From assembly GCA_921293015.1 (NCBI GenBank), contig OV121081.1, forward strand, positions 55,081,877 through 55,145,876: a DNA stretch of 64,000 nucleotides, written 5' to 3'. This DNA comes from Phorcus lineatus. Lineage: Eukaryota; Mollusca; Gastropoda; Trochida; Trochidae. Shown piece by piece: positions 577 through 57,535 of this stretch. Position 1 is the first letter of the stretch. Each line of letters begins with the position of its first letter. The notes beneath the pieces were generated by a model that made no database searches, had not been told where the DNA came from, and worked only from the letters and a program-made list of their open reading frames with translations. The position numbers were made by a program, and so were the translations under genes.

Positions 577-755
577 CTGGAATAAAAGGAATAACCCTGA
601 TGTAATTAATTTTGATCATTTGGTAAAAATGTAATCGAAATGTGCGTTTTCTGATATTTATATTTGATATTGGATAATTGACACAAGATTGCATTCGTAT
701 TACTTAGAATATGGTTTTCGCTAGGTTTAACTCAGCATCTATGTGTAATTGTTAC

Positions 756-960
756 GAACAATCTGGGGTAGGCCTATATCACAATCGAACAATCTGCAGA
801 TTGTTTGCTCACAATCTAGGAATTCCTAGACTGTTTAAACAATCTGCAGATTGTGCGACCTGAACAATCTGGGAATGATCACAATCTGGGAATGATCACA
901 ATCTGGGAATTTGTGTTTTAGTAGTATTTTCATCATTATAAAATGTGAATTATTTAGCTT
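756..960 (+). repeat. left outer domain of the foldback element
   Basis: Contains two copies of the palindrome ACAATCTGCAGATTGT (or one-base variants) at about 789-855, TAGGAATTCCTA at about 817, and three spaced copies of ACAATCTGGGAATgATC at about 863-910, followed by an AT-rich spacer. The same blocks occur inverted at 12830-13066. The left copy lacks one palindrome present on the right and has one extra ACAATCTGGGAAT block. Confidence 0.8.
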
Positions 961-3260
961 AGTAAGGTTTTTCTTTTTAGCAAGTATAAGGATCGATTCC
1001 TAGATTGTGATGAGCAATCAGCTTGTCTCTTTCTCAAAATGAGGGGGTGTGGGAGCCGATTCCCAGATTGTGAAGGACATTCAGCTCGTCTTTATGTCAA
1101 ACTTAGGGGATGTAAGGGTTGACTCCTAGATTGTGAAGGGCTCATAGCTCACCTTTATTTAAACTGAGACGGTATATATGAGTCGATTCTCAGATTGTGA
1201 AGGGCTCACATTTCGCCTATATATCAAACTGACGGCGTATCGGGTTCGATTCTCAGATTGTGAAGGGCTCATAGCTCACCTTTATTTAAACTAAAGGGTA
1301 TTGCAGTCGATTCTAAGATTGTGAAGGGCTCACAGATCGGCTTTATGTCAAACTGAGGGAGTATAGGGGCCGATTACTAGATTGTGAAGGGCTCACAACT
1401 CGCCTATATGTAAAACTGACGGAGTAAAGGGATCGATTCCTAGATTGTGAAGGGCTCATAGCTCGCCTATAAATCAAACTGACGGAGTATAGAGGTCGAT
1501 TCTCAGATTGTGAAGAGCTCACAACTCGCCTATATGTCAAACTGAGAGGGTATAGCACTCGATTCTTAGATTGTGAAGGTCTCACAGCTCGCCTATAAAT
1601 CAAACTGACGCTGTATAGGGGCCGATTCCTAGATTGTTAAGGGCTCATAGCGCACCTTTATTTAAACTGACAGAATATAGGGGTCAATTCTCAGATTGTG
1701 AATGGCGCACATCTCGCCTATGTGTGAAACTGAGGGAGTATATAAGGGGCCGATTCCTAGATTGTGAAGGGCTTACAGCTCACCTATATATGAAACTGAG
1801 AGGGTATATAGGAGTCGATTTTCAGATTGTGAAGGGCTCACATTTCGCCTATATGTCAAACTGACGGAAATTAAGGATCGATTTTCAGATTGTGAAGGGC
1901 TCATAGCTCGTCTTTTTGTCAAACTGAGGGAGTATAGGGCCGATTCCTAGATTGTGAAGGGCTCACCGCTCGCCTTAAAGTCAAACTGAGGGGGTAGAGG
2001 GGTCGATTCCCAGATTGTGAAGGGCTCACAGCTCACCTTTATTTAAACTGAGAGGGTATAGCAGTCGATTTTCAGATTGTGAAGGGCTCACAGATCGGCT
2101 TTATGTAAAACTGAGGCAGCATAGGGGTCAATTCTCAGATTGTGAAGGGCTCACATCTCGCCTATTTGTCAAACTGACGGAGTATAGGGATCGATTCTCA
2201 GATTGTGAAGGGCTCATAGCTCGTCTTTATGTCAAACTTAGGGAGTACAGGGATCGATTCTCAGATTGTGAAGGGCTCATAGCTCACCTACAAACTGACG
2301 AGTATAGAGGTCGATTGTCAGATTGTGAAGAGCTCACAGCTCGCCTATATGTAAAACTGACGGAGTATAGGGATCGATTCTTAGATTGTGAAGGGCTCAT
2401 AGCTCGCCTATAAATCAAACTGACGGAGTATAGAGGTCGATTCTCAGATTGTGAAGAGCTCACAACTCGCCTATATGTCAAACTGAGAGCAGTCGATTCT
2501 TAGATTGTGAAGGGCTCACAGCTCGCATATAAATCAAACTGATGCAGTATAGGGGCCGATTCCTAGATTGTTAAGGGCTCATAGCGCACCTTTATTTAAA
2601 CTGACAGAATATAGGGGTCAATTCTCAGATTGTGAATGGCTCACATCTGGTTTAAACATATTTATTTCAAGAAGAATTGGATTGGTAAACAAGCCATAGG
2701 CTTATGTGAATACCGCTCCAAGATACAAATGTGATACATGTCATGGTGATTTTACAATATATGTATATACAGAAACGACAGTTTATTATAAATACAACAA
2801 ACGCAATGAGTGCAAAAAATTGAAATATAATCAACCAATAAGTCATTTTGCAAATCTGCCTGTTAAATTTATAAATTCGTGCACTGATGTTAAAAGTTCC
2901 ATATTTTTGGTAGCGGAACAATTTATGTTTCCGAATAAAACTGATTTTGGCTCACATCTCGCCTATGTGTCAAACTGAGGGAGTATAGGGGCCGATTCCT
3001 AGATTGTGAAGGGGGTATAGGGGTTGATTCCCAGATTGTTAAGGGCTCACAGTTAATCTATATTCAAACTGAGAGGGTATAGGAGTCAATTCTGGGATTG
3101 TGAATGGTTCATAGCTCGCCTATATATGAAACTGAGAGGGTAGAGGAGTCGATTCTCAAATTGGGAAGCGCTCATAGGTTGCTATTTATCAAACTGAGAG
3201 GGTATAAGAGTCTATTCTCAGATTGTGAAGGGCTCATAGGTCGTTTTTACGTCATATATA
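961..3260 (+). repeat. left tandem array of a ~63-bp unit
   Basis: About 30 diverged units with a period near 63 bp (for example GTGAAGGG at 1321 and 1384). Each unit has the order: GATTGTGAAGGGCTCA, a CTCGCCTATATGTCAAACTGA-like block, GGAGTATAGGGG, and TCGATTCCTAGATTGTGA. Units differ mainly by point changes and small gaps. Open frames through the array simply reflect the period being a multiple of three. The array is interrupted by a LINE 3'-end insertion at 2649-2947. Confidence 0.9.
2649..2947 (-). mobile_element. 5'-truncated LINE 3' end inserted in the left array
   Basis: The 12-bp sequence TGGCTCACATCT, part of the array unit, is present at both 2637-2648 and 2948-2959, a target-site duplication. 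Read on the minus strand, the insert ends in a segment resembling the 3' tail of LINE B at 10900-10960 (CTTGTT..CCAATCCA.., then AATAAATATGTTTAAA). The remainder is non-repetitive and has no recognised protein, so it is probably 3' untranslated LINE sequence. Confidence 0.65.
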
Positions 3261-3284
3261 CGGGGGTATAGAAGCATGTTTACA

Positions 3285-3655
3285 CAGATGAAAATGGAAA
3301 ATGGCAGCATCATATTGAAATATACTACGCAAAGCAAGTCCACTTATTGTTGTTAGTAAATCCCGCCTGTTCTTGTGGAAACATTCGGGAGGATCCTTTT
3401 CATTACTTCTTTAAATGCCCACTATATGATAGATTCCGATCAAATCAATACTTTTTAAAAAACTATATAACATTAAAATCTACCTTGAGCGGCGACAAAT
3501 CCTTGTCACAGAGTGCTAACGAATCCCTAATAATATCTGTGTATCATTTATTATAAATAAATTATCATAAATGATACCAACCGATTTTTATATCTCTTTA
3601 ATAAAATATGTACCAAATGCAAAGGTAGAGAATGCTTAATATGAATTTGATTTGA
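3285..3655 (+). pseudogene. internally deleted LINE fragment (LINE A family), plus strand
   Basis: Positions 3292-3345 match the LINE A segment encoding WQKHIDYILRKAS, but the sequence then jumps directly to the C-terminal zinc-knuckle region (CSCGN.REDPFHYFFKCPLYD at 3366-3430) and the tail ending SVYHLL at about 3553. Roughly 250 codons are missing, so this is a 5'-truncated and internally deleted copy. It ends in TTGATTTGATTTGATTT at about 3644-3662, where it meets the 3' end of LINE A in tail-to-tail orientation. Confidence 0.75.
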
Positions 3656-3899
3656 TTTGATTTAAACAATATTTTATTTCCAATAAAGATACAACATATT
3701 GTGCAAAACAATAAAATTACGCAACGGAAAAAGGATCAGCAAACAGGCTACATCAGCCTATATAAATGCTTCTCCTAAAACAATAAGGGTTAGAACAATT
3801 AAGTTTATAGTTACATTGATGGAAATGTACTAATGTTAATCTAGTTCATTAGTTGGTCATTTATCATGCATTCGGTACCGCACTTGAAACAAAAGACTG

Positions 3900-6800
3900 T
3901 CAAAAACGGTTGGTATGAGATATGAAATGATAAACAGATTTTATTATAGTTTCGTTATCGCTCTGTGACAACGATTCATCGCCGCTAAGAATAGTTTGTA
4001 GGTTTATATCGTTATAGAAATAGTATGCATTTGATCTGAGAGCATCATATAAAGGACACTGATAAAAGTAATGAAAAGGGTCCTCCCGCCTGTTTCCGCA
4101 GGAACAGGCACGATTTACTGATAACCCTCTATCAAACAGATGGGACTTAAGATCACTGCAGCCCAGGCGTATGCGACAAAGAAGAATTTGAGTTCCCCTT
4201 GGACCGTGAGATATATACTTTTTGAATATTGGTGATAAAGTTTTATCGCATGAAATCAAATTCTTAAATTGCGTCAGCGACTCTGCATTTCTGATACTTA
4301 TATCCAGCGAGTTCCAAGCGTTAACAGTAGATGGAAGAAAAGAGTTATTAAAAAGAGACAATCGCCCAGCAGTAAAACGTAGATTCTCGGAATTTCTTAA
4401 ATTATAGCTGCTTAGATTTGAAACATTTCGCGGAACCCATATTGAGAGGTATTGTGGAGTTAAACCATGTACCATTTTATAAAACATGCATAATTTGTGA
4501 AATCGTCGTCTTTCAGCTAACGAGGAATAGCCTGTCTCAGAATAGAGTTTGTCATGACTTGTACCCCTCACTGCGCCTGAAATGGTCCTTAGAGCATCTA
4601 AATGTAGTTTTTCTATCATATAAGCCTGTTCTTTGGTACAATTGTCCCATATGGTATCACAGTAGTCAAAAATAGGTATTATAAAAGATCTGTACATAGT
4701 TTCAATGGATACTCTATTCAGTCTATATTTTAAACTTCTCAAACAATTTATAAGAGGACTTGCTTTGCGTAGTATATAATCAATATGTTTCTGCCATTTT
4801 CCATCATCTTGTAGAATTAGACCGAGGTGTTTGTGTTCACTTACTTCCGAAATGTTAGTATTATCAAGTGTTAATTGAAGTTTCGGACTTGCATTATTCT
4901 TATTTGAAAATAACATAGCTTCAGTCTTTTCTGGGCTGAATTTAACCTGCCACTTATTTGCCCAGTCTGAAATGCGATTTAAATCGTTGTTGAGTAGTGT
5001 TTGAGTCTGACGTGGATCTTCGATAACTAGGTATAGAGAAGTGTCATCTGCAAAGAGTTTTACATTACTTATCAACCCGTCGGTTAAATCATTAATATAA
5101 ACAAGGAATAATAGTGGTCCCAGAACAGAGCCTTGAGGAACACCAGCCAATACAATTTTGGGATTTGATTTATGGCCATTGATAACAACCGACTGTTTCC
5201 TGTCACTAAGGTAATTTTTGAACCAACATAATACGTTGCCAGTTATTCCGACTGATTCAAGTTTTACTAATATCCCTGCATGCCAAACACGATCGAAAGC
5301 TTTACTGATATCACAAAATATAGCTCTGACTTCTTTACCATCCTCCATAGCTTTTGATATGACATGATATAGTTCAGTTAATTGATAAACTGTTGAGTCC
5401 CCAGGTTTAAACCCAGACTGGTGTTTTGATATGATTTCATTATCAATAAAGAAATTATAGACATGCTTAAAAATGCATTTTTCAAATACTTTAGCCAAAC
5501 AGGAAGATAGAGCGACGGGTCTGTAGTTATTACAATCATGAACACTCCCTTTCTTGTGAAGTGGCACAACTGCCGAGAATTTCCAAATGTCGGGAAATTG
5601 GGATAATTGTATAGATAAATTGAACAATTTTGTCATTGGCCTATGAAGAGGTCGAGCTAAGGCCTTAAGTATTTTATTGCTGATATTATCTGGACCCTTA
5701 GCTTTTGTGGTATCTAATGAACATAAAATATCAAAAACTTCATTTTCAGTCAGACAGAAATTTTCCAATTTGTTTTCACTGTAATTAGGAGGAGGTGGTT
5801 CAATATCAGGTTTATCGACTTGGGCTTGTTCTGTGAAAAAATCATTAAATCTGTTTGCTATATCATCTGGATTGTCAAGGATAGTACCGTTGTGAGCGAT
5901 AGGTGGAAACTGCTTGCCTGATTTTCTATTTTTCTTGATATACTTATTTACTACACGCCACCACGATTTCGTTCCTCTCTCAGTGTTGATAATATCGTCA
6001 AGTTTTAGGTCATATTCACGTTTAGCTTTTCTGACTTCCGAGATGACTTTGTTTCTAGCGACTTTAAAGCGATCCCAATGATAAGAATTATTTTTTCTTT
6101 TAGCAACCCTATGCAAGCGATTTCTTTTTCTCATTAATTTCCGTAGATGTCCGTTCATCCATATACCATCTTGTGGTCTTATAAACACCTCCTTATTTGG
6201 AATATGATTATCAATTAAGCTACTAAGTGTTTGAGTAAACTCGTTTGCAGCATTATTCATATCGTCATTGAACATAGAGTCCCAATCGATATTTAGAATA
6301 CTATCACTTAGCCCCTCAAAGTCCGCCTGGTTATAGTCATAGATGATTCTCTTAAATGCATCGTTGGATTGTTTTCCCAGTTTTAATGTAACGAAGACGG
6401 GACAATGATCGCTGCAGATTGGAGTAAGGACGCCCGATTCATGTACGATATTAAATGAGGAAGTAAGTATAATATCTAACAAAGTGCTAGTATTCTGCGT
6501 CACTCTTGTAGGTTCGTTGATTATCTGAACTAGGTCATACATGATTTGGAGATTTTTTATCTTATTGTTATTCGAACTGAGCATATTGGCATTGAAATCA
6601 CCTAAAATAAATAATCTAATATTTCTATTTACTGCTCTAGCAAACGAATCGTCGATCAAATCCCAATATTTATTGCTTAAATCAGCTCTGTAAAAAGTTC
6701 CAATTAGAAATTTACTATTATTTGTAATAACTTCGACCCAAATAGCTTCTAATTCAGGAATATCAAGATCTGATACATGTTTAAAATATAGAGTATCTTT

Positions 6801-7205
6801 AAGATATACTGCAACCCCTCCTCCCCTTGTAGGCCTGTCTTTACGAACGGGTGGGTGATAGCCGGGTATAAGTATGGAGTCATTTAACACGTCGGGACTT
6901 AACCAAGTTTCGGATAAACAGATAACATCATAATTACTATACTCTACTACAAGTAAATCGGTTTTTTCCCTCAAACTACGTATGTTTAAGTGAATAATGC
7001 TAAGAGCTGGGCCTGGATGAGGATGGACATCACCACAGCATATAAGTAGCAAGGATATCATTAGAAAATAACGTACCCCTAAGCATAGACATAGTACTAT
7101 ACAGAAACAAGTAAAACTATCGAAGCGGCGAGTATTTCTTCTAGCAGTAGACGCAGCAAACAACCCAACTGCCATCCTATATTGAGTTACGTCAACCCCC
7201 ATCAA
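3900..7205 (-). CDS. LINE A: intact endonuclease/reverse transcriptase ORF
   Basis: A single unbroken 1,101-codon frame of a non-LTR retrotransposon. In order: an N-terminal hydrophobic stretch (residues about 31-57) ending in DVHPHPGP (59-66); an exonuclease/endonuclease/phosphatase domain with LNIRSL (73-78), CLSETW (96-101), GDFNA (202-206) and SDH near 265; reverse transcriptase with AIFCDISKAFD, GVPQGSVLGPLLF and the catalytic FADD near residue 717; and a C-terminal CxC..H..C knuckle (CSCGNRREDPFHYFYQC). The enzyme nicks target DNA and copies its RNA there. The architecture is of the CR1/L2/Jockey-like group; the exact clade is not determined. The 3' untranslated region runs from 3899 down to about 3655 and ends in AAATC repeats. 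No stop or frameshift is present, so this copy may be young. Confidence 0.92.
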   Translation of the reverse strand: MMGVDVTQYRMAVGLFAASTARRNTRRFDSFTCFCIVLCLCLGVRYFLMISLLLICCGDVHPHPGPALSIIHLNIRSLREKTDLLVVEYSNYDVICLSETWLSPDVLNDSILIPGYHPPVRKDRPTRGGGVAVYLKDTLYFKHVSDLDIPELEAIWVEVITNNSKFLIGTFYRADLSNKYWDLIDDSFARAVNRNIRLFILGDFNANMLSSNNNKIKNLQIMYDLVQIINEPTRVTQNTSTLLDIILTSSFNIVHESGVLTPICSDHCPVFVTLKLGKQSNDAFKRIIYDYNQADFEGLSDSILNIDWDSMFNDDMNNAANEFTQTLSSLIDNHIPNKEVFIRPQDGIWMNGHLRKLMRKRNRLHRVAKRKNNSYHWDRFKVARNKVISEVRKAKREYDLKLDDIINTERGTKSWWRVVNKYIKKNRKSGKQFPPIAHNGTILDNPDDIANRFNDFFTEQAQVDKPDIEPPPPNYSENKLENFCLTENEVFDILCSLDTTKAKGPDNISNKILKALARPLHRPMTKLFNLSIQLSQFPDIWKFSAVVPLHKKGSVHDCNNYRPVALSSCLAKVFEKCIFKHVYNFFIDNEIISKHQSGFKPGDSTVYQLTELYHVISKAMEDGKEVRAIFCDISKAFDRVWHAGILVKLESVGITGNVLCWFKNYLSDRKQSVVINGHKSNPKIVLAGVPQGSVLGPLLFLVYINDLTDGLISNVKLFADDTSLYLVIEDPRQTQTLLNNDLNRISDWANKWQVKFSPEKTEAMLFSNKNNASPKLQLTLDNTNISEVSEHKHLGLILQDDGKWQKHIDYILRKASPLINCLRSLKYRLNRVSIETMYRSFIIPIFDYCDTIWDNCTKEQAYMIEKLHLDALRTISGAVRGTSHDKLYSETGYSSLAERRRFHKLCMFYKMVHGLTPQYLSIWVPRNVSNLSSYNLRNSENLRFTAGRLSLFNNSFLPSTVNAWNSLDISIRNAESLTQFKNLISCDKTLSPIFKKYISHGPRGTQILLCRIRLGCSDLKSHLFDRGLSVNRACSCGNRREDPFHYFYQCPLYDALRSNAYYFYNDINLQTILSGDESLSQSDNETIIKSVYHFISHTNRF

Positions 7206-7467
7206 ACTGTCTTACAGATATGTAGTAGGAGGCAGTGGGTTGGGCTAGAGTCTCATATTGCTGAGAGTTATGGAAAATAGTTATTTCAAGCATCTTCGAG
7301 GTGAGATGAAATAAATGAACGGTACCAGAATGCAAAATAGACCTAAGTGAAGACATTTGTGAGCATTTAACTGAAAAGGACGTGACACACGTCAGTTTGC
7401 AGACGAACATTGAAAAGGTTAAAATACACAGGACTCCAAACAATGGAGCAAGTAAAGAATAAGTCAT
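7192..7467 (-). CDS. small ORF overlapping the start of LINE A (uncertain)
   Basis: A 91-codon frame starting at 7467 whose end overlaps the ATG of the LINE A ORF (7205) by 14 bases in a different frame. Its N-terminus is hydrophobic. It has no recognisable ORF1 features (no coiled coil, RRM or CCHC knuckle). It may be a short upstream ORF in the LINE 5' region or a chance frame. Confidence 0.2.
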   Translation of the reverse strand: MTYSLLAPLFGVLCILTFSMFVCKLTCVTSFSVKCSQMSSLRSILHSGTVHLFHLTSKMLEITIFHNSQQYETLAQPTASYYISVRQFDGG

Positions 7468-7614
7468 GTTGACTAATTGACCTTACATAAAGATTAACAA
7501 AAATAGAGTTACTGTTAATACTCAATAATGGCATATAATACAATTTGATTTTAGTATGAATAATTGCAAATATATATTTTCACCAATGCACTTCATATCT
7601 TAATCGTTTCATGT

Positions 7615-7745
7615 TTGTTTCAGGAGAAGCATTTATATAGGCATTTGCTGCCTGTTTGCTAATCCTTTTTCCTTTTTGAATATATATATTCTGAATGTTG
7701 TGTATCACATGTTTCATGGAAATTAAATACTGTTTAAATCACACA
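7615..7745 (+). repeat. solo LINE A-family 3' end, plus strand
   Basis: GGAGAAGCATTTATATAGGC followed by GCCTGTTTGCTAATCCTTTTTCC matches the reverse complement of the LINE A 3' untranslated region (3715-3790). It ends GGAAATTAAATACTGTTTAAATCAC. This is an extreme 5'-truncation. Confidence 0.7.
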
Positions 7746-8560
7746 GAAGAAATTAGTTGTTTGCCACTGCCGTAACTATGGTCGCAGCACGTAGTAGAGA
7801 CGATGCCATTATATGACTCTTCTTGCAGCGTAGTTAATAATCCACTCAAAATAAAATATTCTTAAAATATTGAATCATGAACAGATAATAAATAAATCAA
7901 ATAAAACATTTCTTTGTAAAATTCACAAACCGATATAACGGAAACTATTATAAACGTTACAGAAAAAACATGTGTCAAAATGTTGACCATAGTGTGACCC
8001 AAGAGCAATTAAACATTTTACTCCAGTCAATTCATTATTGGGTAAGTATTTGCCCCATGATATCGTGCGATAGATAAACATCAAATTACAGAGAGGAAGT
8101 TAATGTGATTGTACGCGAATTTACGCGCAAGTTTGAGTAGAGACGCGACACAGTGACACGTTGCTTTGATAAGCAGACCCTGCTAGACATCTGGTCTAAT
8201 TATTCACGACAACACAAAATGTTAACTGTTCGAGTATTATAAATTTTATAAAATCATACATGTATATTTAAAAACTGTTCATATAAAAACTCAAAAGAAA
8301 CAGTAACTTTCCGATTTATGCATCTTTCGTATAAAAACTTTCAATCTCACGATCCAGGAAGAAAATGAGGGGAAAAGGTAACAGTTATCAAGTTTCCATA
8401 ATGAACAATAAATATAAGAATCAGAGTTTGTTTTCTTTGATGTTTGAAACTTTTTTTAGCATCACGAGACTATTTCCTTCATTGTGCCCTGTAAGTGTAA
8501 GTGTCTATGCAAGTAATTCATACCAAAGGAGATTAGTGTTTTGTGTTGATACAGATAGTA
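7746..8560. other. unassigned centre of the foldback element
   Basis: No coding sequence recognised. The segment is AT-rich with a short GC-richer patch at 8110-8200 (TACGCGAATTTACGCGCAAG). It might be original central DNA of the element, since it is the longest stretch there not explained by LINEs. Confidence 0.35.
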
Positions 8561-10750
8561 ATTATGCTCAATGAATGGCTTAAATTCAAATCGCTTAGAA
8601 ATAAAGTCATATCCTCAGTACGTAAAGCAAAAAAACAGCACACAGCTAGAATTGATTCTGCAATTAGTGAATCAATAGGTACAAAAACTTGGTGGAAACT
8701 TGTAAAGAATTATTTGCAAAATAAAGCAGCTAAGAGTACTTGTCATTCAATTATTGACGATGATATTCTGTACGACGATTTGGACGATGTTACAGAAATA
8801 ATGAATAGCTATTTCACTGGTCAGTCCCAAGTAAAAGATCCTGATGACGACCCCCCTCCCATATATGACCGTTGCGGTAGTACTCTGAATAGTATAATAT
8901 TGGAGAAGGGGGAAGTCAAGGATATCTTGCTATCTGTAGATACAACTAAAGCAACGGGCCCGGATAAAATTGGAAACAAAATATTAAAAATGTGTGCTAA
9001 CTCTTTAGCACCGATTCTAACTAAATTATTCAACCTGTCCTTAAAATTTTCGAAATTCCCTACGCCTTGGAAAGAGGCATATATAACCCCTATCCATAAA
9101 ACCGGTAACTTATACGATTGCTCAAATTATAGACCAGTAGCCTTAACAAGTTGTATAGCTAAAATTTTTGAAAAATGTATCTTTAAATATGTGAACAATT
9201 TTCTAAGAGACAATAACCTTCTCTCGAATTTACAATCCGGATTTACCCCTGGCGATTCTACAACTAATCAACTGACTTACCTATATGATTTCATAGCCAA
9301 AGCACTTGACGATGGTAAAGAAGTAAGGGCGGTATTCTGCGATGTTAGTAAAGCATTCGATAAAGTCTGGCATAAAGGCATACTGCAAAAATTGAAATCG
9401 TACGGAATTGAAGGTAGCTTATTAAAATGGTTTGAAAGTTATCTAAACGATAGAACCCAGAGGGTTGTTATCAATGGACACGCGTCAAACCCTCAACCTG
9501 TCTTGGCAGGCGTCCCTCAAGGTTCCGTTTTGGGACCTCTGTTGTTTATAATATACATTAATGATATTGTAGATGATATTGATAGTAACATCAGACTTTT
9601 CGCAGATGATACTTCTCTTTACGTTATAATTGACGACCCCGACAAAGCTGCCAACTGTTTGAATAATGACCTATTGCTAATTTCAAAGTGGGCGAAAAAG
9701 TGGAAAGTGTCATTTAATCCTAAAAAAACGAAATCAATTCAGTTTAGTAGAAAGATAAACCGAAACACTAAACCGAATCTCACAATGGACGGAGAAAGAA
9801 TTCAGGAAGTAGAACACTATAAGCATTTAGGTCTGACTCTTCAAAATAATTGTCACTGGGATATTCACATAAACTCGATTATCAATAAAGTTAGCCCTTT
9901 GATAAACTGCTTAAGGAGCCTAAAATATCGTTTATCACGAAAAAGTTTGGATATTATTTATAAATCTTTCATCTTGCCAACTTTTGACTATTGCAGCCAC
10001 ATTTGGGATAATTGCACCAAACAACAGTGCATTTTACTCGAAAACTTGAATCTAGACGCATTGAGATCAATTTGTGGAGCAGTCCGCGGGACAAGCCATA
10101 ACAGTATTTATGAAGAAACTAATCAAAAACCCCTATCGGAACGTAGAAATATATCTAAATTGACAACGTTCTACAAAATGAAGAATAATATCGCGCCTCA
10201 ATATCTATGTAATCTTCTACCTCCAATACCTAACAATAACTACTACCTCAGAGAAAATTCATCCGTCCGAACTATCAAATGTAGAACAGCGTTATATGCA
10301 AGATCGTTTTTACCTGAAACAATAAAACTGTGGAATTCCTTAACTCCTGACGTTCAAAGTATTGATACATTATCCGGTTTCAGAAATTCAGTTCAAGGAC
10401 CCGGCAATAAAACTTCTACTTTCGATCTTAACTATGGTCCACGAATTTGCCAGATCATCCACTCTCGCCTCAGGCTCCACTGTAGTGACTTGAACGCTGA
10501 TAAGTTCAACAGACATATCATCGAAAGCCCGGCCTGCTCCTGTGGTCACCCAGTCGAAAACGCTGTCCACTATTTCTTCACTTGCCATAAGTACATAGAA
10601 TTAAGACAGAAGTCATTCTTTTATCTGAAAGGATTTGGTATCAAAACGGTTCTGCGGGGATGCACATCGCTCTCATTAAGTGATTCCAATAGATTATTGA
10701 ACTCTATTCATCATTACATAATGAAATCAGATCGATTTGATATTTCATAA
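8543..10750 (+). CDS. LINE B: 5'-truncated reverse transcriptase ORF
   Basis: 735 codons from the first ATG, but similarity to LINE A starts only around 8580 (FKSLRNKVISSVRKAKK against FKVARNKVISEVRKAKR), so the true element is truncated there and has lost the endonuclease. The reverse transcriptase is complete: AVFCDVSKAFDKVWH, GVPQGSVLGPLLF, FADDTSLY (about 9598-9621), then a C-terminal knuckle CSCGHPVENAVHYFFTC. It is clearly the same family as LINE A but diverged. The 3' untranslated region follows to about 10965 and ends AATAAATATGTTTAAATC. It has no internal stop. Confidence 0.9.
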   Translation: MLIQIVIMLNEWLKFKSLRNKVISSVRKAKKQHTARIDSAISESIGTKTWWKLVKNYLQNKAAKSTCHSIIDDDILYDDLDDVTEIMNSYFTGQSQVKDPDDDPPPIYDRCGSTLNSIILEKGEVKDILLSVDTTKATGPDKIGNKILKMCANSLAPILTKLFNLSLKFSKFPTPWKEAYITPIHKTGNLYDCSNYRPVALTSCIAKIFEKCIFKYVNNFLRDNNLLSNLQSGFTPGDSTTNQLTYLYDFIAKALDDGKEVRAVFCDVSKAFDKVWHKGILQKLKSYGIEGSLLKWFESYLNDRTQRVVINGHASNPQPVLAGVPQGSVLGPLLFIIYINDIVDDIDSNIRLFADDTSLYVIIDDPDKAANCLNNDLLLISKWAKKWKVSFNPKKTKSIQFSRKINRNTKPNLTMDGERIQEVEHYKHLGLTLQNNCHWDIHINSIINKVSPLINCLRSLKYRLSRKSLDIIYKSFILPTFDYCSHIWDNCTKQQCILLENLNLDALRSICGAVRGTSHNSIYEETNQKPLSERRNISKLTTFYKMKNNIAPQYLCNLLPPIPNNNYYLRENSSVRTIKCRTALYARSFLPETIKLWNSLTPDVQSIDTLSGFRNSVQGPGNKTSTFDLNYGPRICQIIHSRLRLHCSDLNADKFNRHIIESPACSCGHPVENAVHYFFTCHKYIELRQKSFFYLKGFGIKTVLRGCTSLSLSDSNRLLNSIHHYIMKSDRFDIS

Positions 10751-11300
10751 TGACTGCCAAACAAGCGAAATGTTATTCATGCATAACTACTATCTATGAA
10801 GCTATGATTGCAATCAGATATGTGTCACTACCATAAAGTTGTATATATATATATTTTCTCATGTGTAATTGCTTCGGAGCGGCCTTAAAATAAGCACCTA
10901 GGAGCTTGTTGGCCAATCCATTCATGATTTGTACATTTTCATGAATAAATATGTTTAAATCAATTATGCTCAATTAACCTTACTTAAGTCAAATAAGCGA
11001 GAATGAAGAATTAAATTTCAGCGTAATTAACTTTTCAGATAATAAGTTTACTTTTCATAGTGAATTGTTATTTATTGATTTCTATATGCAAACCTTTTAC
11101 ACATATAAGAAATAGTTCTTACTTCTACATAAATAGTAACACCCTCCAAACAGTGTTATACGGGTTACCGCAAACTATGATTAATGGAAATCTAAAATCG
11201 CAGAATCGATATGCAAATTTAGTTTTCTACCTCCACATATTCACAATATGTGAATTGAACCCTCTACTAGTTAAAAAACACACAAAGACAAGCGCAATGC
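10751..11300. other. LINE B 3' tail and unassigned sequence
   Basis: To about 10965 this is the LINE B 3' untranslated region. From there to the start of the right array the DNA is AT-rich and no gene is visible. Open frames in this stretch lack any domain signature. Confidence 0.5.
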
Positions 11301-12830
11301 CCTTCACAATCTATACTCCCTCAGTTTGACGGTGATCGGAAAAAAAGTAACCGGAAAAAAAGTAACAGATTTTGCTAGGAAAAAAAGTAACAGTTTTTTT
11401 GTTTTTTTATTTGATAAGTTTAACAAAATATGACATAATGTACTAACAGTTCACATTTTCATCAAAGCATCTTCTGCAAATTATTGGCTGTTTCAAGTAG
11501 GGTTCTACTCTAACTCTGGGATAGCCGCCAAAGATTATGTTTCTTGGTAGAGTTTTTGTGTCGAATGTAATGATTACAGAGCGAGTGTTTCTGTCCTGGT
11601 TTTTTTTATCCTTTGTACTGTAATGATATTTATATTGTGGTTGTATTTGTTTGCTACTTCTCTAGCTTCTTCTAAATCTTCATCAGTAAGGTCCTGATCT
11701 ATTTTTATAACCCCTTTGGATTGTGTTTCCCAGTAGGGTGTGGCGAATTATGAGCCCTTCACAATCTGGGAATCGATCCCTATACTCAGTCAATTTGATT
11801 TATAGGCAAACCATGAGCCTTTCACAATCTGAAAATCAAACCATATACTCTAACAGTTTGACATAAACGCGAGCTATGAGCCCTTCACAATCTGAGAATA
11901 GACCCATCTACTCCGTCAATTTAACATATAAACGCGCTGTGAGCCCTTCACAATCTATGAATCGGCCTCTATACTCCCTCAGTTTCACAAAATGACGATA
12001 TCTGAGCCCTTCACAAATCTTCTATTTCCTCTCAGTTTGACATAAAAGCAAGCTGTGAGCCCTTCACAATCTGAGAATCGACCCTTATTCTCCGTCAGTT
12101 TGACATAAAGGCGCGCTGTGAGCCCTTCACAATCTAGGAATCGACCCCTATATTCCCTAAGTTTCACATAATGACGATATCTGAGCCCATCACAATCTGA
12201 GAATCGACTGCTATACCCTCTCAGTTTAGATAAAGATGAGCTATGAGCCTTCACAATCTGAGAATAGATCCCTATACTCCCTCAGTTTGACATATAGGCC
12301 CACTGTGAGCCCTTCACAATATAGGAATCGGCCCCTATATTCCCTAAGTTTCACATAATGACGATATCTGAGCCCATCACAATCTGTGAATCGACTGCTA
12401 TACCCTCTCAGTTTAAATAAAGGTGAGCTATGAGCCTTCACAATCTGAGAATCGACCCTTATACTCCGTCAGTTTGAGTTAAAGGCGAGCGGTGAATCGA
12501 TTCATATACTCCCTCAGTTTGACATATAGGCGAGCCCTGAGTCCTTCACAATCTAGGAATCGACCCCTATACTTCCTCAGTTTGACATATAGGCGAGATA
12601 TGAGCCCTTCACAATCTGGTAATTGACCCCTATATTCCCTTAGTTTCATATAATGACGATATCTGAGCTCTTCACAATCTGAGAATCGACTGCTATACCT
12701 CTCAGTTTAAATAAAGATGAGCTATGAGCGTTCACTATCTGAGAATCGATTCATATACTCCCTCAGTTTGACATATAGGCGAGCTGTCAGCCCTTCACAA
12801 TCTATGACTTGACAACTATTCTCCATCATT
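11300..12830 (-). repeat. right tandem array of the ~63-bp unit (inverted)
   Basis: The same unit as the left array in the opposite orientation (GAGCCCTTCACAATCT..GAATCGACCCCTATACTCC..TCAGTTTGACATATAGGCGAG). About 16-18 units lie between 11748 and 12815, plus part of one at 11300-11332 before an insertion. The inversion relative to 961-3260 is what makes the whole a foldback structure. Confidence 0.9.
11333..11745 (-). pseudogene. fragment of a LINE ORF1 (gag-like) in the right array
   Basis: On the minus strand a frame reads RSVIITFDTKTLPRNI, then GGYPRVRVEPYLKQP, IICRRCF and a stop at about 11440. This is the end of an RNA-binding fold running into the first CxxC of a CCHC knuckle, typical of non-LTR ORF1 proteins. 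An upstream piece in another frame reads LTDEDLEEAREVANKY, so there is a frameshift near 11590. The right flank of the fragment carries three copies of GGAAAAAAAGTAAC (11337-11395). The array resumes at 11748. Confidence 0.5.
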
Positions 12831-13066
12831 TGAATGCATACACAAATAAAAACCTAAAGAAACTAAACAATTCTCATTTTATAATGCAAGATGTACTACA
12901 AACAAGCAAATTCCCAGATTGTGATCATTCCCAGATTGTTCACGTCTCACAATCTGCAGATTGTTTAAACAATCTAGGAATGAAAAAAATTCCTAGATTG
13001 TTCGAACAATCTGCAGATTGTGAGCGAACAATCTGCAGATTGTGATCATTCCGAGATTGCACGGAA
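12830..13066 (-). repeat. right outer domain of the foldback element
   Basis: Contains AATTCCCAGATTGTGATC and CATTCCCAGATTGTTCAC (12909-12942), three ACAATCTGCAGATTGT palindromes (12949-12964, 13006-13021, 13028-13043) and paired AATCTAGGAAT / ATTCCTAGATT (12970-13000). It aligns inverted with 756-960 over nearly its full length, including the AT-rich spacer. Confidence 0.8.
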
Positions 13067-13133
13067 TATAATAACATACAATAATCACCTATCGTTCTAC
13101 TTATCATTGCTGGAAAGGACGTGATGAGTGTAC

Positions 13134-22900: not shown

Positions 22901-24564
22901 TCTGAAAAAAATATCCAATACATAACATAATATTTCAAATTTGAATAAATCAACCTCTAAACTTTAACCCATGCTTTTAACCCCCCGCTCGCTTGACATG
23001 TTAACAAACTACAAAAAAACTGGTTATTTCAGCGTTAGCTTTTAATGGTATGTTGTTTAAGTATTGTGGATTAATAATTGGTGCTTTCTTCCCAATTTTA
23101 CCTTTTTCATTATTTCATTTAATTCATAACACTTTAGTGTAAAATTTCATTTGGACAAAGGGTAATTTGTTTAAAACGCTTTGTTAATTAGGGTAAAACT
23201 GTTTACCACTTAGGACACGCTTTCTTTTATCAGGGACGATCTGGTCTGGTTTTGCCTTTTCCCCTTCTCCAACCATCTTGTACCATCCCTGGAACTTATG
23301 TTCATCATCTTCGGTGATACAGTTCAAAGATACAGACTCGGACTCTATGACGCTCACCGTTTTTCCATCGCTTCCTGTAATTTGTTTCATCTCTTATAGA
23401 GGCATTCTTAACGGGATGATCAACTTTCTTATGTAAGATCAATGGTCCTTACAGGCTTTTAATATGTACTTCTGTTAAGGATGATTGCCGAAACATCGAT
23501 AAAGAGTGATATCCATCAGATATGTTATTAAACATTATATAGGTTTGTCGAACATTGACCTTGTGATTACGAACAAGCTGTTCATCAGCATAAAATTCAA
23601 CCTGTTCAAATGTCTTTCGAAATAAACATTCAAACTAATCTATGGTTACTGATGACCTCAACTTGTATTATCATATGGAGAGGCTCATATTGCTATTAGA
23701 TAAAGCTAAACGAGACTCGATTAAATGAAATATTTCCTGCTTAAGGGCATGAAACCGCTTTTCGTGAGCTATGCTGTATATTTAAAGTGGCAGTAGCACG
23801 TTCATAATTTGAACAAAATGATGTCACGAAAACAAAACTAGATGTTACCAATTGAAAGCTAATGCAATATTCTTGTAATGTAAAAAGTAGCTCTCAAATG
23901 AATGTAACATGTTCGGTTAAGCTACGAAAATCCATCTGCCTACCTTAAATGATTTAAAGGTGTTAACATTAAAATGGTTGCCAGCAGATTTCTCTTGACA
24001 TTTCAAAATGTCTCTACGAATATTGATAAGCGGACTGAGTAATGAGGTGATTGAACATCTTGTAGATAATGCTTTTGATGTAAACATATATTTATAATGG
24101 AACATTTTTAGAAATAAAAACATTTTGAAAAGGTTATACTGCCCCTGTGAGGTGAGTTGCATGAAAGAGAGGCTGTAAATGAGATTACAGCCATACCTTT
24201 CGACATTCCAACTATTTTGAAAAAAATACATCTAATTCTCATTATTATCATCAATGTTCAACGTAATTTACATCATTGTTCAACTTAAATTACATCATTG
24301 TTCAACGTAAATTATATCATTGTTCAACGTAAATTATATCATTGTTCAACGTAAATTACATCATTGTTCAACGTAAATTATATCATTGTTCAACGTAAAT
24401 TATATCATTGTTCAACGTAAATTATATCATTGTTCAACGTAAATTACATCATTGTTCAACGTAAATTACATCATTGTACATCAACGTATATTCAAGGCGT
24501 ACTCACCACGGCAGAATACAATTAACAGCATGAGACCGCATAAAGCGTTAATTTTAAAGGCCAT
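19812..24564 (-). CDS. Ig-domain cell-surface receptor A (gene span, five clear exons)
   Basis: Spliced on the minus strand: 24564-24507, 23374-23207, 22272-22150, 20305-20209, 19960-19812. All junctions use AG/GT and keep frame. The product begins with a signal peptide (MAFKINALCGLMLLIVFC), then a V-like Ig domain with C (VSLNC), W (GWYKM) and DDAGIYKC split over two exons, then a C2/I-like Ig domain with C (TISCVF), W (EVTWYY) and GNYTCEG split over two exons. The role of such proteins is cell-surface recognition or adhesion; the ligand is unknown. It lies directly downstream of the paralogue receptor B on the same strand, a tandem pair. The membrane part may be the exon at 468-576 far downstream, with an optional stalk exon at 13134-13244. 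It could otherwise be a secreted form if a stop follows in an unspliced transcript. Confidence 0.8.
20209..20305 (-). CDS. receptor A exon 4: first half of Ig domain 2
   Basis: 97 nt, the same length as exon 4 of receptor B. Acceptor GCTTACAG|GA, donor GGGAAA|GTATGT. Encodes PKLLSITPN ... DDTITISCVFAGK with the first Ig cysteine. Confidence 0.85.
21400..22010 (-). pseudogene. Tc1-type transposase relic in receptor A intron 3
   Basis: On the minus strand, fragments of a DD34E transposase in several frames: RRVL-like and FTDES-like remnants near 21950, then ARNLTGQRYIDEALRPIVVP and LQHDKARPHTAGMVSDYLE (about 21600-21780), where the D of HDKARPH is the second catalytic aspartate. Multiple stops and frame changes show it is dead. 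Its left edge reads RPLTTSMRRRV near 21430. Confidence 0.8.
22150..22272 (-). CDS. receptor A exon 3: second half of Ig domain 1
   Basis: 123 nt. Acceptor GTCCAG|GTAA, donor GAATG|GTGAGT. Encodes GKLYFVYVEADDAGIYKC..., ending ELDVSKPNG; the DxGxYxC motif of a V-type fold. Paralogous to 30692-30811. Confidence 0.88.
23207..23374 (-). CDS. receptor A exon 2: first half of Ig domain 1
   Basis: 168 nt, phase 1 to phase 1. Acceptor AATTACAG|GA, donor AAGTG|GTAAAC. Encodes SDGKTVSVIESESVSLNC, then KFQGWYKM, with the first Ig cysteine and tryptophan. Confidence 0.85.
24251..24480. repeat. 22-bp minisatellite in receptor A intron 1
   Basis: About ten head-to-tail copies of CATTGTTCAACGTAAATTAY (22-bp period). 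They differ mainly by AC/AT in one position and one diverged first copy. Confidence 0.95.
24507..24564 (-). CDS. receptor A exon 1: signal peptide
   Basis: ATG at 24564-24562 preceded by GAAAGAGAT; donor CCGTG|GTGAGT. Encodes 19 residues with a hydrophobic core (LCGLMLLIVFC), a classic cleavable signal peptide. It ends in phase 1, as does exon 1 of receptor B. Confidence 0.82.
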
Positions 24565-40898: not shown

Positions 40899-42404
40899 TC
40901 ACAATTCAGTTATTAATTTGTCTCTTAATATAACAGCATGATTTACGAAAAGGGCTAGATTACGTATTACTTTTTCGTTTCTGGAAGACATAATAGAAAT
41001 AAAGGCAGTTGAAGGGTACTTTGAAAGATAACGGTGTGAAATATACATTTTTCTTAAATCATCATAGTGTGGACAAACGAAAGCAAAGTGGACTTCATCT
41101 TCAACAGCAGATTTACATAATGGACATATTCTTAATTTTCTTTCTATCGAAGATCTCCTGCCTGTATTTACAGCTAAGTCTAACAGGCCCAATCGGAAAT
41201 ATACATATGTGCGTCTGATATTTCTTGATGTCAATATAGTAAGATATAATTCTGGTTGGATTAAACTCTTGTGGGATCTGTACAATTGATATCTTGTGCT
41301 GTTGTCTAGATTGGAATGCCACTCTTGATAAAACATGCTAACAGATTGTTCTCGAAATTGTTTAAGGAATAGGTTAATATTACCAACTGTTTGATTTAGC
41401 CACACAAATCCAAACCCATGAGAAAATAAAAGATTTTTTATATGAGTCACCCATGTTATCTTACCCATATCATCTAAGTGAACAAGCATGTTATAAGCTA
41501 GCTTTGGTAGTCTTTGCTCGTGCATTCCAAGGATCCTTAACCAGAATTTTAAACATCTTATTTGTGAATTTATGTATACTGGATATCTACCACATTCACC
41601 ATAAACCATGCAATTCGGTGTTGCCAGTGCTACATTTAAAAATCGTTTGCATGCTAGAAGGTGTAGTTTCTCAATACATTCATGACGTTGGAACCCCCAA
41701 ATTTCAGATCCATAGAGCATAATAGGTTGGATTTGTGAATCAAACAATTTAAAATATATTCTCGGATATAAAATCCCAAAGTTGTGGGAAACTGACATAA
41801 TGTTGATAAGGGCCTTTTTGGCACGTAACTTAAGGTCTAAAACGCTTTGTTTAAAGTTCATAGTGTAGGGAAATATAAGGCCAAGATATTTATACTTATT
41901 AACAATCGATACCTGTTTACCATTCAAAAACCATTTTTCTTTAGAGGCGACAGGACCACCCCTTCTAAAAATAACTATGTTCGTTTTTTCAAAGTTAACA
42001 GATAATTTCCATTCATTTGTATATCTTTCCAGAACATTTAGCTGGTTTTGTAGACCGATAACAGTATCTGAAACAAGAATAACATCATCGGCAAAAAGAA
42101 GAATAAAAATTTCAATCATAGATGGAAACATTTGTACACCATGTTTGCCTAACTGAGTTATATCATAATAAAGTTCGCTTATAAAGAAGGAAAACAATAT
42201 TGGGCTTAAAATACACCCTTGCCGAACTCCAATTGGACAGTCAAAATAATCGGTCACATCGTCATCACAACGAACACATAATTTGATATTTGAGTACATT
42301 GATCTTAAAATAGAATACATTTTCCCTTGTAAACCTGCTCTTCTTAAACATTGCCATAATTTACAACGATCTACAGAATCAAACGCATTTTTTAAAATCA
42401 ACAA
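40899..42404 (-). pseudogene. LINE C, reverse transcriptase half
   Basis: 501 codons continuing the frame of the next entry after a one-base slip. Encodes AFDSVDRCKLWQCL, GVRQGCILSPILFSFFI, catalytic FADDVILVSDT (near 42080), and a C-terminal knuckle CPLCKSAVEDEVHFAFVCPHY. The 3' UTR continues to about 40800 and ends GGGCCGGAGGCCTTAAGTAC..AATAAA. The subfamily differs from LINEs A and B. Located in intron 3 of the galactosyltransferase gene, same strand as the gene. Confidence 0.88.
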
Positions 42405-44097
42405 ATGCTACGTAAAGTTTATGTTTACTACGAGATAAACACTTTTGTATTATTGCATAAAGTGTGAATATATGGTCAGTAGTTGAATACTCTTTTCGAA
42501 ATCCTGCTTGACATTCAGGGATTAAATTTCTTAGATTTGACCAGTTCGAGAGTCTAGTGTTTAGTATAGATGTAAATATTTTACCAATAACACTCATTAG
42601 GGATATTCCTCGATAATTATCTGGATTGTGTTTAAGGCCTTTTTTATGTATTGGAACAATAATTGAACGAGACCAGCTCTCTGGAAAGGAACCACTTTCA
42701 AATACCCTATTAAAGCACTTTAGTAGGAAAGGTATTAATTGTGACTGAGAGCATTTCATCATCTCTATTATAACATTGTCAGGACCAGGTGATTTTCCCT
42801 TCTTTAAGCGATTAATAGCAGTCTTTATCTCATCTTCTGTTATTTGTTGTTCAAGAATCATTTGGTCAATATTGTCAAATTCGTGAGGAGAGATATCATC
42901 ATCATCGAACGAATAGCTATCAATTTGAAAAATACTATCATTTGAAAAAACTGTCTTAAAATGGGTCATCCATTCACATTTAGAAATATTACTTTTAGGA
43001 TTTGGTTTACTTTTGAATGAACGAATTTGTTTCCAGAATAAAGTGGGATTGTTGAAAGAATCATTCAGATTTTTCAATCTTTGATAACGTAGGTTAGATT
43101 TATATTTCCTGCAAGAAGCTTTGTATTTGTTTCTCATTTTACAAAAAAGATGTCTGTTATCATCTGATCGTTTACACCGAAAACTTCTTAGTGCTCTTCG
43201 AGCATCCCTACGGGCGGTTTTACATTCATCATTTAAGGGGGTTTTACGAGTTTGTTTGAATTTCCTACGTTTTTTCTTCATGCAACTTGCTGAATCTAGT
43301 ACAATGTCGACAAAATCATCCAAAGCTCCGTTCAGGTCGAACTCAAGTTTCGATAGGAGAAGGTCGATGGTAGACGAGATCTTATCTTTAAGGGTATCTA
43401 AAAATATATCACAAAAGGTATCGTTCCAGACAATGCTTTCTTTGAAATCATCGACATGATTGCTATTTTTAAGGTTCTTCTTATTTGGAAATTGACAAGT
43501 CAGTTCCAATGGTAAATGATCAGAGTCTACTCTGTCTCCAACGTTAAAAAACTTAATAAATTGAAAAAAGTCTGGTGAACAAATATAATAGTCATTAACA
43601 CTCGAACCCTGATGTCCATGAAACGTAAATTCACCATGCGAGTCTCCATACACTCTACCATTTACTATGAAGAGATTGAATGTAAAGCATAAATCAAGTA
43701 ATAGATTTCCAAAATTATTAATCACATTATCATGTGAACATCGGTCATCTATAGGATAATCATCATTATCAATAGTCTCATGGAATGGAGGATTTATATT
43801 ATCATGATCTAGACTTAATGTCACATTGTTTTGTTGGCCTGTACGTGCATTCATATCACCACAAATGACAGTGTGAGATTCAGCAAAGTCATTAACATTC
43901 GCTAAAAGATATTGTTCTAATTGTTCAATATTACACTTATGATTCATATGCTTGTAGTATGTTGAACCAATGGGAGGGATATAGGAACATATAAAATTTA
44001 CGTCTTTATCAATTGAAAACAATTCTTTAGAAAATTTGATACATATGAAATTATCAATGTTGGTTATTAATTGTGTAATTAATTGATAACGTAACAT
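42379..44097 (-). pseudogene. LINE C, endonuclease half (5'-truncated)
   Basis: 572 codons. Begins inside the endonuclease (NFICSYIPPIGS, ICGDMNARTG, then SDHLPLELT near residue 195) and lacks the first roughly 80 residues of that domain. Runs to LYVAFVDFKKCV, where the run GATTTTAAAAAATGCG has one base too many and the reverse transcriptase continues in the other frame from 42404. One slip from intact, so a fairly young copy. Confidence 0.85.
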
Positions 44098-57244: not shown

Positions 57245-57535
57245 ATTGCTATTTATTTATTAAAGTATGTGTTTTAATTATTTTGAAGATGAATTTCATT
57301 TCGTTATGATGTGTCCAGCATTTAGGAAACTTACATTTAAATATTTACCATTTATTTTTACCTCATATAACTTAAAAACTAGTTTCATCAATCTAATGGC
57401 ATCTCGTAAAGTGAATGTTATAAAAGCTCTACAGCTATACACCATGCATTGCGTCTTAGACGACAATTGTTATAATATTATTCAACCTGCTCACTGTTAC
57501 GGGCCGGAGGCCACACGTACTGAATAAAGAATCTG
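57245..57535 (+). pseudogene. LINE C-family fragment, right part and 3' end
   Basis: CFNYFEDEFHFVMMCPAFRK (57267-57325) corresponds to the LINE C knuckle CKSAVEDEVHFAFVCPHYDD; the frame continues to ASRKVNVIKALQLY. It ends GGGCCGGAGGCC..GTACTGAATAAAG, matching the LINE C 3' end at 40820-40845. Confidence 0.8.

Follow-up and report, generated by a model that had tools for sequence, protein, structure and literature searches.

The question raised by the Phorcus lineatus locus analysed here, a window of 64,000 nucleotides at C1:55081877-55145876 (contig OV121081.1) of a 957.8-Mb genome, is whether the facing arrays of a 63-bp unit near its left end belong to a mobile element and, if so, by what means that element moves. 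The structure is one copy of a dispersed mobile family, a discrete element that spans positions 750-13068 of the window (12.3 kb), its boundaries having been set by reading the termini of other copies. The family is probably one of non-autonomous terminal inverted repeat (TIR) DNA transposons with a foldback architecture, moved in trans, most likely by an integrase-type transposase of the Ginger2/TDD kind. An earlier note, made from the sequence alone, had read positions 756-13066 as a foldback-like element bounded by composite inverted repeats; the element is real, with paired ends that recur, target duplications and variable centres, while its true limits are 750 and 13068, with TAAT on each side.

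At the genome level, exact matches were found for a 30-mer of the left end (289) and a 26-mer of the right end (299), against none for a reversed-pattern control, which excludes both chance and a duplication unique to this locus. Longer end queries gave 1,060 and 1,155 first-look candidates, 40 of each being scored. Pairing was analysed within 30 kb among the first 100 left ends listed and 94 of the first 100 right ends listed. A right end in the right order and on the right strand was found for 62 left ends (61 after dropping one pair that skipped another copy), with no wrong-order pair and a single pair in opposite orientation. As for the other 38 left ends, no exact right end lies within 30 kb, exact matching missing diverged ends, the window's included. 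The 61 pairs range from 845 bp to 16.2 kb, with a median of about 5.3 kb. The "very large" size put forward by the earlier note is thus not that of the family, in which paired ends are typically about 5 kb apart; the window copy owes its length to the insertion of two long interspersed nuclear elements (LINEs), of 3,888 and 2,386 bp, and of smaller pieces, and without the two LINEs and two smaller insertions it would measure about 5.3 kb. Near-identical interiors occur at different loci (99.6-99.7% among L039, L040 and L043, and 99.8% between L050 and L057), and from this near-identity the family has probably been active recently. As a separate observation, a copy (L002 1-1477/L049 1-340) was seen by eye to be inserted in a frame resembling the retroviral-type protease of a long terminal repeat (LTR) retrotransposon.

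On either side of the window copy stands TAAT (746-749 and 13069-13072), a 4-bp target site duplication. Matching 4-bp duplications, among them TAAT, TGTA and TACA, flank 14 of the 19 complete copies, compared with a shuffled mean of 1.7 and a maximum of 9 in 100,000 shuffles. The target is the palindrome GTG-TATA-CAC: 24 left and 33 right flanks, in part drawn from the same insertion, give 57 half-sites, in which the duplicated bases are TATA-like and the next three positions are Y (+1, in 55), A (+2, in 56) and Y (+3, in 52). A native empty site is provided by one copy (L054), which sits within a 44-bp tandem array with TATT on both of its flanks. Nine units of this array match the joined flanks when up to 4 mismatches in 28 are allowed; five of them read GTGTATTCAC and four GTGTATTAAC or GTGTATTTAC, with a single TATT in each. 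Apart from this array, when joined flanks were compared with the loci fetched, all matches were partial, to microsatellites or to the copy's own locus.

Concerning the anatomy of the element, the left outer block, or TIR (750-975, plus strand), starts with TGTTACGAACAATCTGGGG and comprises the palindromes ACAATCTGCAGATTGT and an AT-rich spacer. It is followed by the left arm (976-2654, continued at 2948-3263, both on the plus strand), made of 63-bp tandem units that carry AGATTGT in a single orientation and interrupted at 2655-2947 by an insertion which, by eye, resembles a LINE 3' end in reverse. On the other side, the right arm consists of an inner piece (11240-11330) and an inverted 63-bp array (11742-12834), both on the minus strand, and the right outer block lies at 12835-13068 (minus strand). 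Read from the outside inwards, the latter begins with TGTTCCGTGCAATCTGGG in intact copies, whose right ends close with CCCAGATTGCACRGAACA; the last bases of the window copy are altered (GGAATA). Tandem Repeats Finder (TRF) reports arrays with a period of 63 (or 62) bp at 983-2645, at 3013-3243 and within 11742-12803, and positions 789-2162 align with the opposite strand of 13021-11742 at 73.7% over 1,388 columns, other array alignments reaching 78%. Alignment and TRF thus agree with what had been noticed at the outset, namely an outer palindromic block, an AT-rich spacer and a 63-bp array at both ends in opposite orientation.

The outer blocks, of about 230 bp, match each other as reverse complements at 188 of 228 positions (about 82%) in L048 and at 167 of 211 in the window, and are conserved between copies (medians of 95.9% for the left and 98.3% for the right block over 171 pairs). 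The AGATTGT motif follows the arms: in six copies, 17-30 occurrences were counted on the plus strand of the left arrays, 9-31 on the minus strand of the right arrays and 0-1 in the core, and the 50.9 kb of the window outside the element hold 14 on both strands combined. Between the arms, a core of about 1.65 kb is common to 16 of the 19 complete copies, the three others being short copies without it. In the window, it is split into three parts on the plus strand, at 3273-3653, 7542-8575 (94.4% identical to the L048 core) and 10962-11238 (94.7%). A 25-mer shared by all 16 cores has 130 exact matches in the genome and is present in 26 of the 61 pairs; the 35 pairs without it are short, diverged, of another subfamily or unresolved. 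The core is flipped in one of the 26 pairs having the 25-mer, and a 74-bp match shows the same for one of 16 probes that contain the core; recombination of the inverted arms would be expected to produce such flips. Its first 570 bases or so resemble a LINE 3' end. In the window this is the first core part, with a C-terminal frame at 3350-3553 that shares 66% amino acid identity over 68 residues with the first nested LINE; at the nucleotide level the LINE-like stretch is about 70% identical to the window LINE, in opposite orientation. A subfamily (L059, L062, L063 and L072) has a diverged core with a different LINE 3' end.

The two LINEs nested in the window core occupy different sites and have their own duplications. 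The first (3654-7541, minus strand, 3,888 bp), bounded by the 10-bp duplication AATTTGATTT, has an open reading frame of 1103 amino acids (3903-7211, minus strand) in which Pfam recognises an endonuclease (PF03372) and a reverse transcriptase (PF00078). The second (8576-10961, plus strand, 2,386 bp) is apparently 5'-truncated, and its reverse transcriptase frame of 737 amino acids (8537-10747, plus strand) starts inside the core. Further copies carry LINE pieces at other core sites, and the large LINEs inside the element are later insertions. A single fixed LINE target site in the core was considered and rejected, the mapped junctions lying at different core positions. LINE-bearing versions have also spread to several loci: one insertion is common to L039, L040, L041 and L043, another to L053, L055 and L056, and a third, with the same junction, to L060 and L061, as well as to L074 as judged by its frame. 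The suggestion that the element "mobilises or hosts LINEs" is partly borne out: LINEs occupy differing sites and have their own duplications, but some LINE-carrying versions are present at several loci.

Other features were seen in these LINEs and in other inserts. At the start of the LINE frame in the window (about 7005-7036, minus strand), CGDVHPHPGP stands ahead of the endonuclease, and CGDVQTNPGP does so in the LINE frame of L056 (6487-4550, minus strand); we take both to be a 2A-like motif. Three same-strand LINE matches each occur at C2:65573249-65606488 and C32:17474414-17491837, over 17-33 kb and with uneven spacing, possibly as duplications. FLYWCH/Mutator-like insertions with A-rich GGAAAAAAAGT-type ends are present in L051 (core 1528-3476), L058 (core about 1-1678) and L077, and the right-arm insertion of the window (11331-11741), with its GGAAAAAAAGTAAC repeats, is by eye styled like the nested ones of L051 and L058. 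Two 11-kb copies contain unrelated coding-like sequence, either captured or nested, a multicopy gene fragment in L079 (C7:46440000-46440499) and a tandem coding repeat in L078 (C9:12422500-12422999). Elsewhere in the window, distant LINE relatives (about 22-32% amino acid identity) were found at 40923-43176 (minus strand) and 57276-57470, and a 22-bp tandem repeat at 24244-24477 (10.6 copies, 95% matches).

As to how the family moves, a Ginger2-like transposase is inferred because of the TG...CA ends, the 4-bp duplications and the R-TATA-Y target. TGTTA or TGTTG forms the left end of the 24 distinct left ends read (with a pattern allowing 3 mismatches), and PMC2836005 gives TGTNR termini, 4-bp duplications and RTATAY targets for Ginger2, and reports Ginger2/TDD in a sea snail among others. 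A full copy comprises inverted outer blocks of about 230 bp dense in ACAATCT/AGATTGT, inverted arms of 63-bp units with the same motif, and a 1.65-kb core in which no transposase was recognised and which is built partly from the 3' end of a LINE. In the mechanism proposed, a transposase acting in trans, most likely of the integrase type and Ginger2/TDD-like, would join the ends to GTG-TATA-CAC and leave the 4-bp duplication. The arrays would probably act as multiple transposase-binding sites, on the model of Galileo, whose transposase has a THAP domain with binding sites inside the tandem repeats of its long TIRs (PMC3688188). The inverted arms would recombine with each other, which would change array length and could flip or delete the core. 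LINEs and Mutator-like elements enter copies, and some of the copies enlarged in this way have moved again.

Several observations weigh against this interpretation. Ginger2/TDD elements have an H2C2 plus DDE transposase; no family transposase, of this or another type, was recognised among the listed frames of the 19 complete and two partial copies or in 24 interior probes, the frames having been judged mostly by eye, with Pfam on some, so that short or broken frames would escape; in the window too, as the earlier note had remarked, none was seen among the listed frames. A search for the rve domain, which cannot separate Ginger2 from LTR integrases, placed none of the 150 candidates scored, out of 1,313, between listed ends (by eye), and one candidate, at C1:46841180, sits 12 kb inside the right-end mark at C1:46829162, its contents not having been examined. 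The right terminus is TGTTC, versus TGTNR in Ginger2. Finally, five of the 19 complete copies have no perfect duplication, four of them (L039, L046, L047 and L052) being off by one base and the flanks of the fifth (L040) showing no duplication resemblance. Filing the family as Ginger2 is not justified because no family transposase was recognised: membership is unproven, and that it works like Ginger2 is the best-supported inference. A limited literature search turned up no paper on a Ginger2 foldback family. Two other candidates were set aside: the FLYWCH/Mutator-like pieces of L051, L058 and L077, considered as the driver, are treated as nested, the L051 insertion having its own duplication AATAGTAA, and the gene-like frame of L079 is multicopy, with copies on C1, C2, C5, C7 and C9 which, by eye, lie off listed element ends save its own. 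Independently, evenly spaced rve matches at C37:5820959-5839158 (8,953 bp) and C1:57144136-57170286 (8,620 bp) suggest tandem arrays of entire integrase-bearing elements.

The alternatives differ widely in weight. That the structure is an ordinary satellite block or a local inverted duplication could be suggested by the tandem and abundant 63-bp unit, which has 4,562 exact 24-mer matches genome-wide. Among the first 100 matches listed, which cover the first 23.5 Mb of C1 and were inspected by eye, however, the unit forms 12 short clusters, 11 of them listed in full. In eight of these a plus run precedes a minus run, three are one-sided and there is no reversed one; the longest run counts 18 matches over 2.1 kb. 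For the part seen, the recurring paired ends and these short, mostly paired clusters lead us to reject both ideas, which are extremely improbable, and the earlier note's own reservations on a satellite and on a local duplication fall with them. A Helitron or Helentron-type element with satellite-like arrays, as in Crassostrea, would to our knowledge have no TIRs and leave no target duplication. It is very improbable here: Helentrons carrying satellite-like arrays are reported in a bivalve (PMC7492417), but the inverted-repeat ends, the 4-bp duplication, the palindromic target and the inverted arrays at both ends contradict this candidate, which was rejected. A doubtful yet possible alternative is that the same kind of element is moved by another or undescribed superfamily making 4-bp duplications, for example one that is IS481EU-like or wholly new. 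It draws on no family transposase having been recognised in the copies, probes and rve search described above, and on IS481EU, for which TGT..ACA ends and possible 4-bp duplications are given in PMC10045372. Against it, the same source describes IS481EU in parabasalids, with duplications of mixed length, and the RTATAY-type target fits published Ginger2.

A true partnership, in which the LINE clade prefers the foldback element and depends on it for its spread, the two forming a composite element, is unlikely. LINE enrichment in elements is itself likely, whatever its cause. LINE coding sequence makes up 25,957 of 130,835 bases in 21 copies, or 18,882 of 85,795 bases in 15 copies once six near-identical relatives are dropped, against 2,809 of 136,630 bases outside elements. 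On C1, C2, C5 and C7, 5 of 17 and 3 of 25 LINE matches have a listed element mark within 8 kb (a limit of our own choosing, the window being counted once per set), as do 1% of random positions; one of the five is on the outer side of the adjacent element, and the marks are incomplete, the LINE match at C1:18544158 lying unmarked between array runs. The core itself holds a LINE 3' end. Yet the mapped insertion sites differ, even if a pair of LINE junctions and a Mutator-like insertion cluster near core 1535-1557, most LINE matches are far from marks, and the clade is common (15,678 and 16,313 first-look candidates). Moreover, the count inside elements is raised by the constitutive core piece and by shared ancestry, the query LINEs were picked for lying in an element, and it may simply be that foldback elements put up with insertions. 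Quite unlikely, too, is the wider scenario of an integrase-type foldback lineage whose 63-bp transposase-binding unit was made into dispersed satellite arms, in reciprocal association with a LINE clade, the LINEs favouring the core and the element amplifying its LINE cargo.

A non-autonomous foldback family mobilised in trans, as preferred here, would have wider consequences. Foldback architectures are known from Mutator and P transposons among the systems considered; if the integrase-type ends are genuine, arrays of a satellite-like kind would have arisen by convergence in a further transposase superfamily. The family offers a route by which a transposon may seed dispersed satellite DNA. Because either end is present in some 300 exact copies, the growth of arrays, the flipping of the core and the capture of cargo can be measured directly; the long inverted arms are also likely to give rise to rearrangements.

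Set beside known systems, the family fits the structural description of foldback elements, having long inverted repeats of tandem subrepeats, a variable centre and dispersed copies with target duplications. Xenopus Tx1 composites are DNA transposons that have internal tandem repeats and contain LINEs, Tx1L being site-specific, whereas here the LINE sites differ between copies. Like Galileo, as described in PMC3688188 and PMC3573991, the family has long TIRs with tandem repeats and structurally dynamic arms, but Galileo has a P-superfamily transposase. The Drosophila Foldback-type Tetris shares long, internally tandem inverted repeats and a variable non-coding middle; PMC4079207 assigns it to Mutator, with 8-10-bp duplications, versus 4 bp and TG..CA ends here. 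Ginger1 likewise has TGTNR ends and a 4-bp duplication, which according to PMC2836005 is CCGG or CCGT/ACGG, unlike TAAT, TGTA, TACA and similar here. The Ginger2/TDD members listed there measure about 2.8-6.7 kb, have TIRs of 45-297 bp and possess a transposase; the family differs from them in that no gene was found, in its far longer satellite arms and in its right terminus TGTTC, and resembles them in its TGTNR left terminus, its 4-bp duplication and its AT-rich palindromic RTATAY target (PMC2836005).

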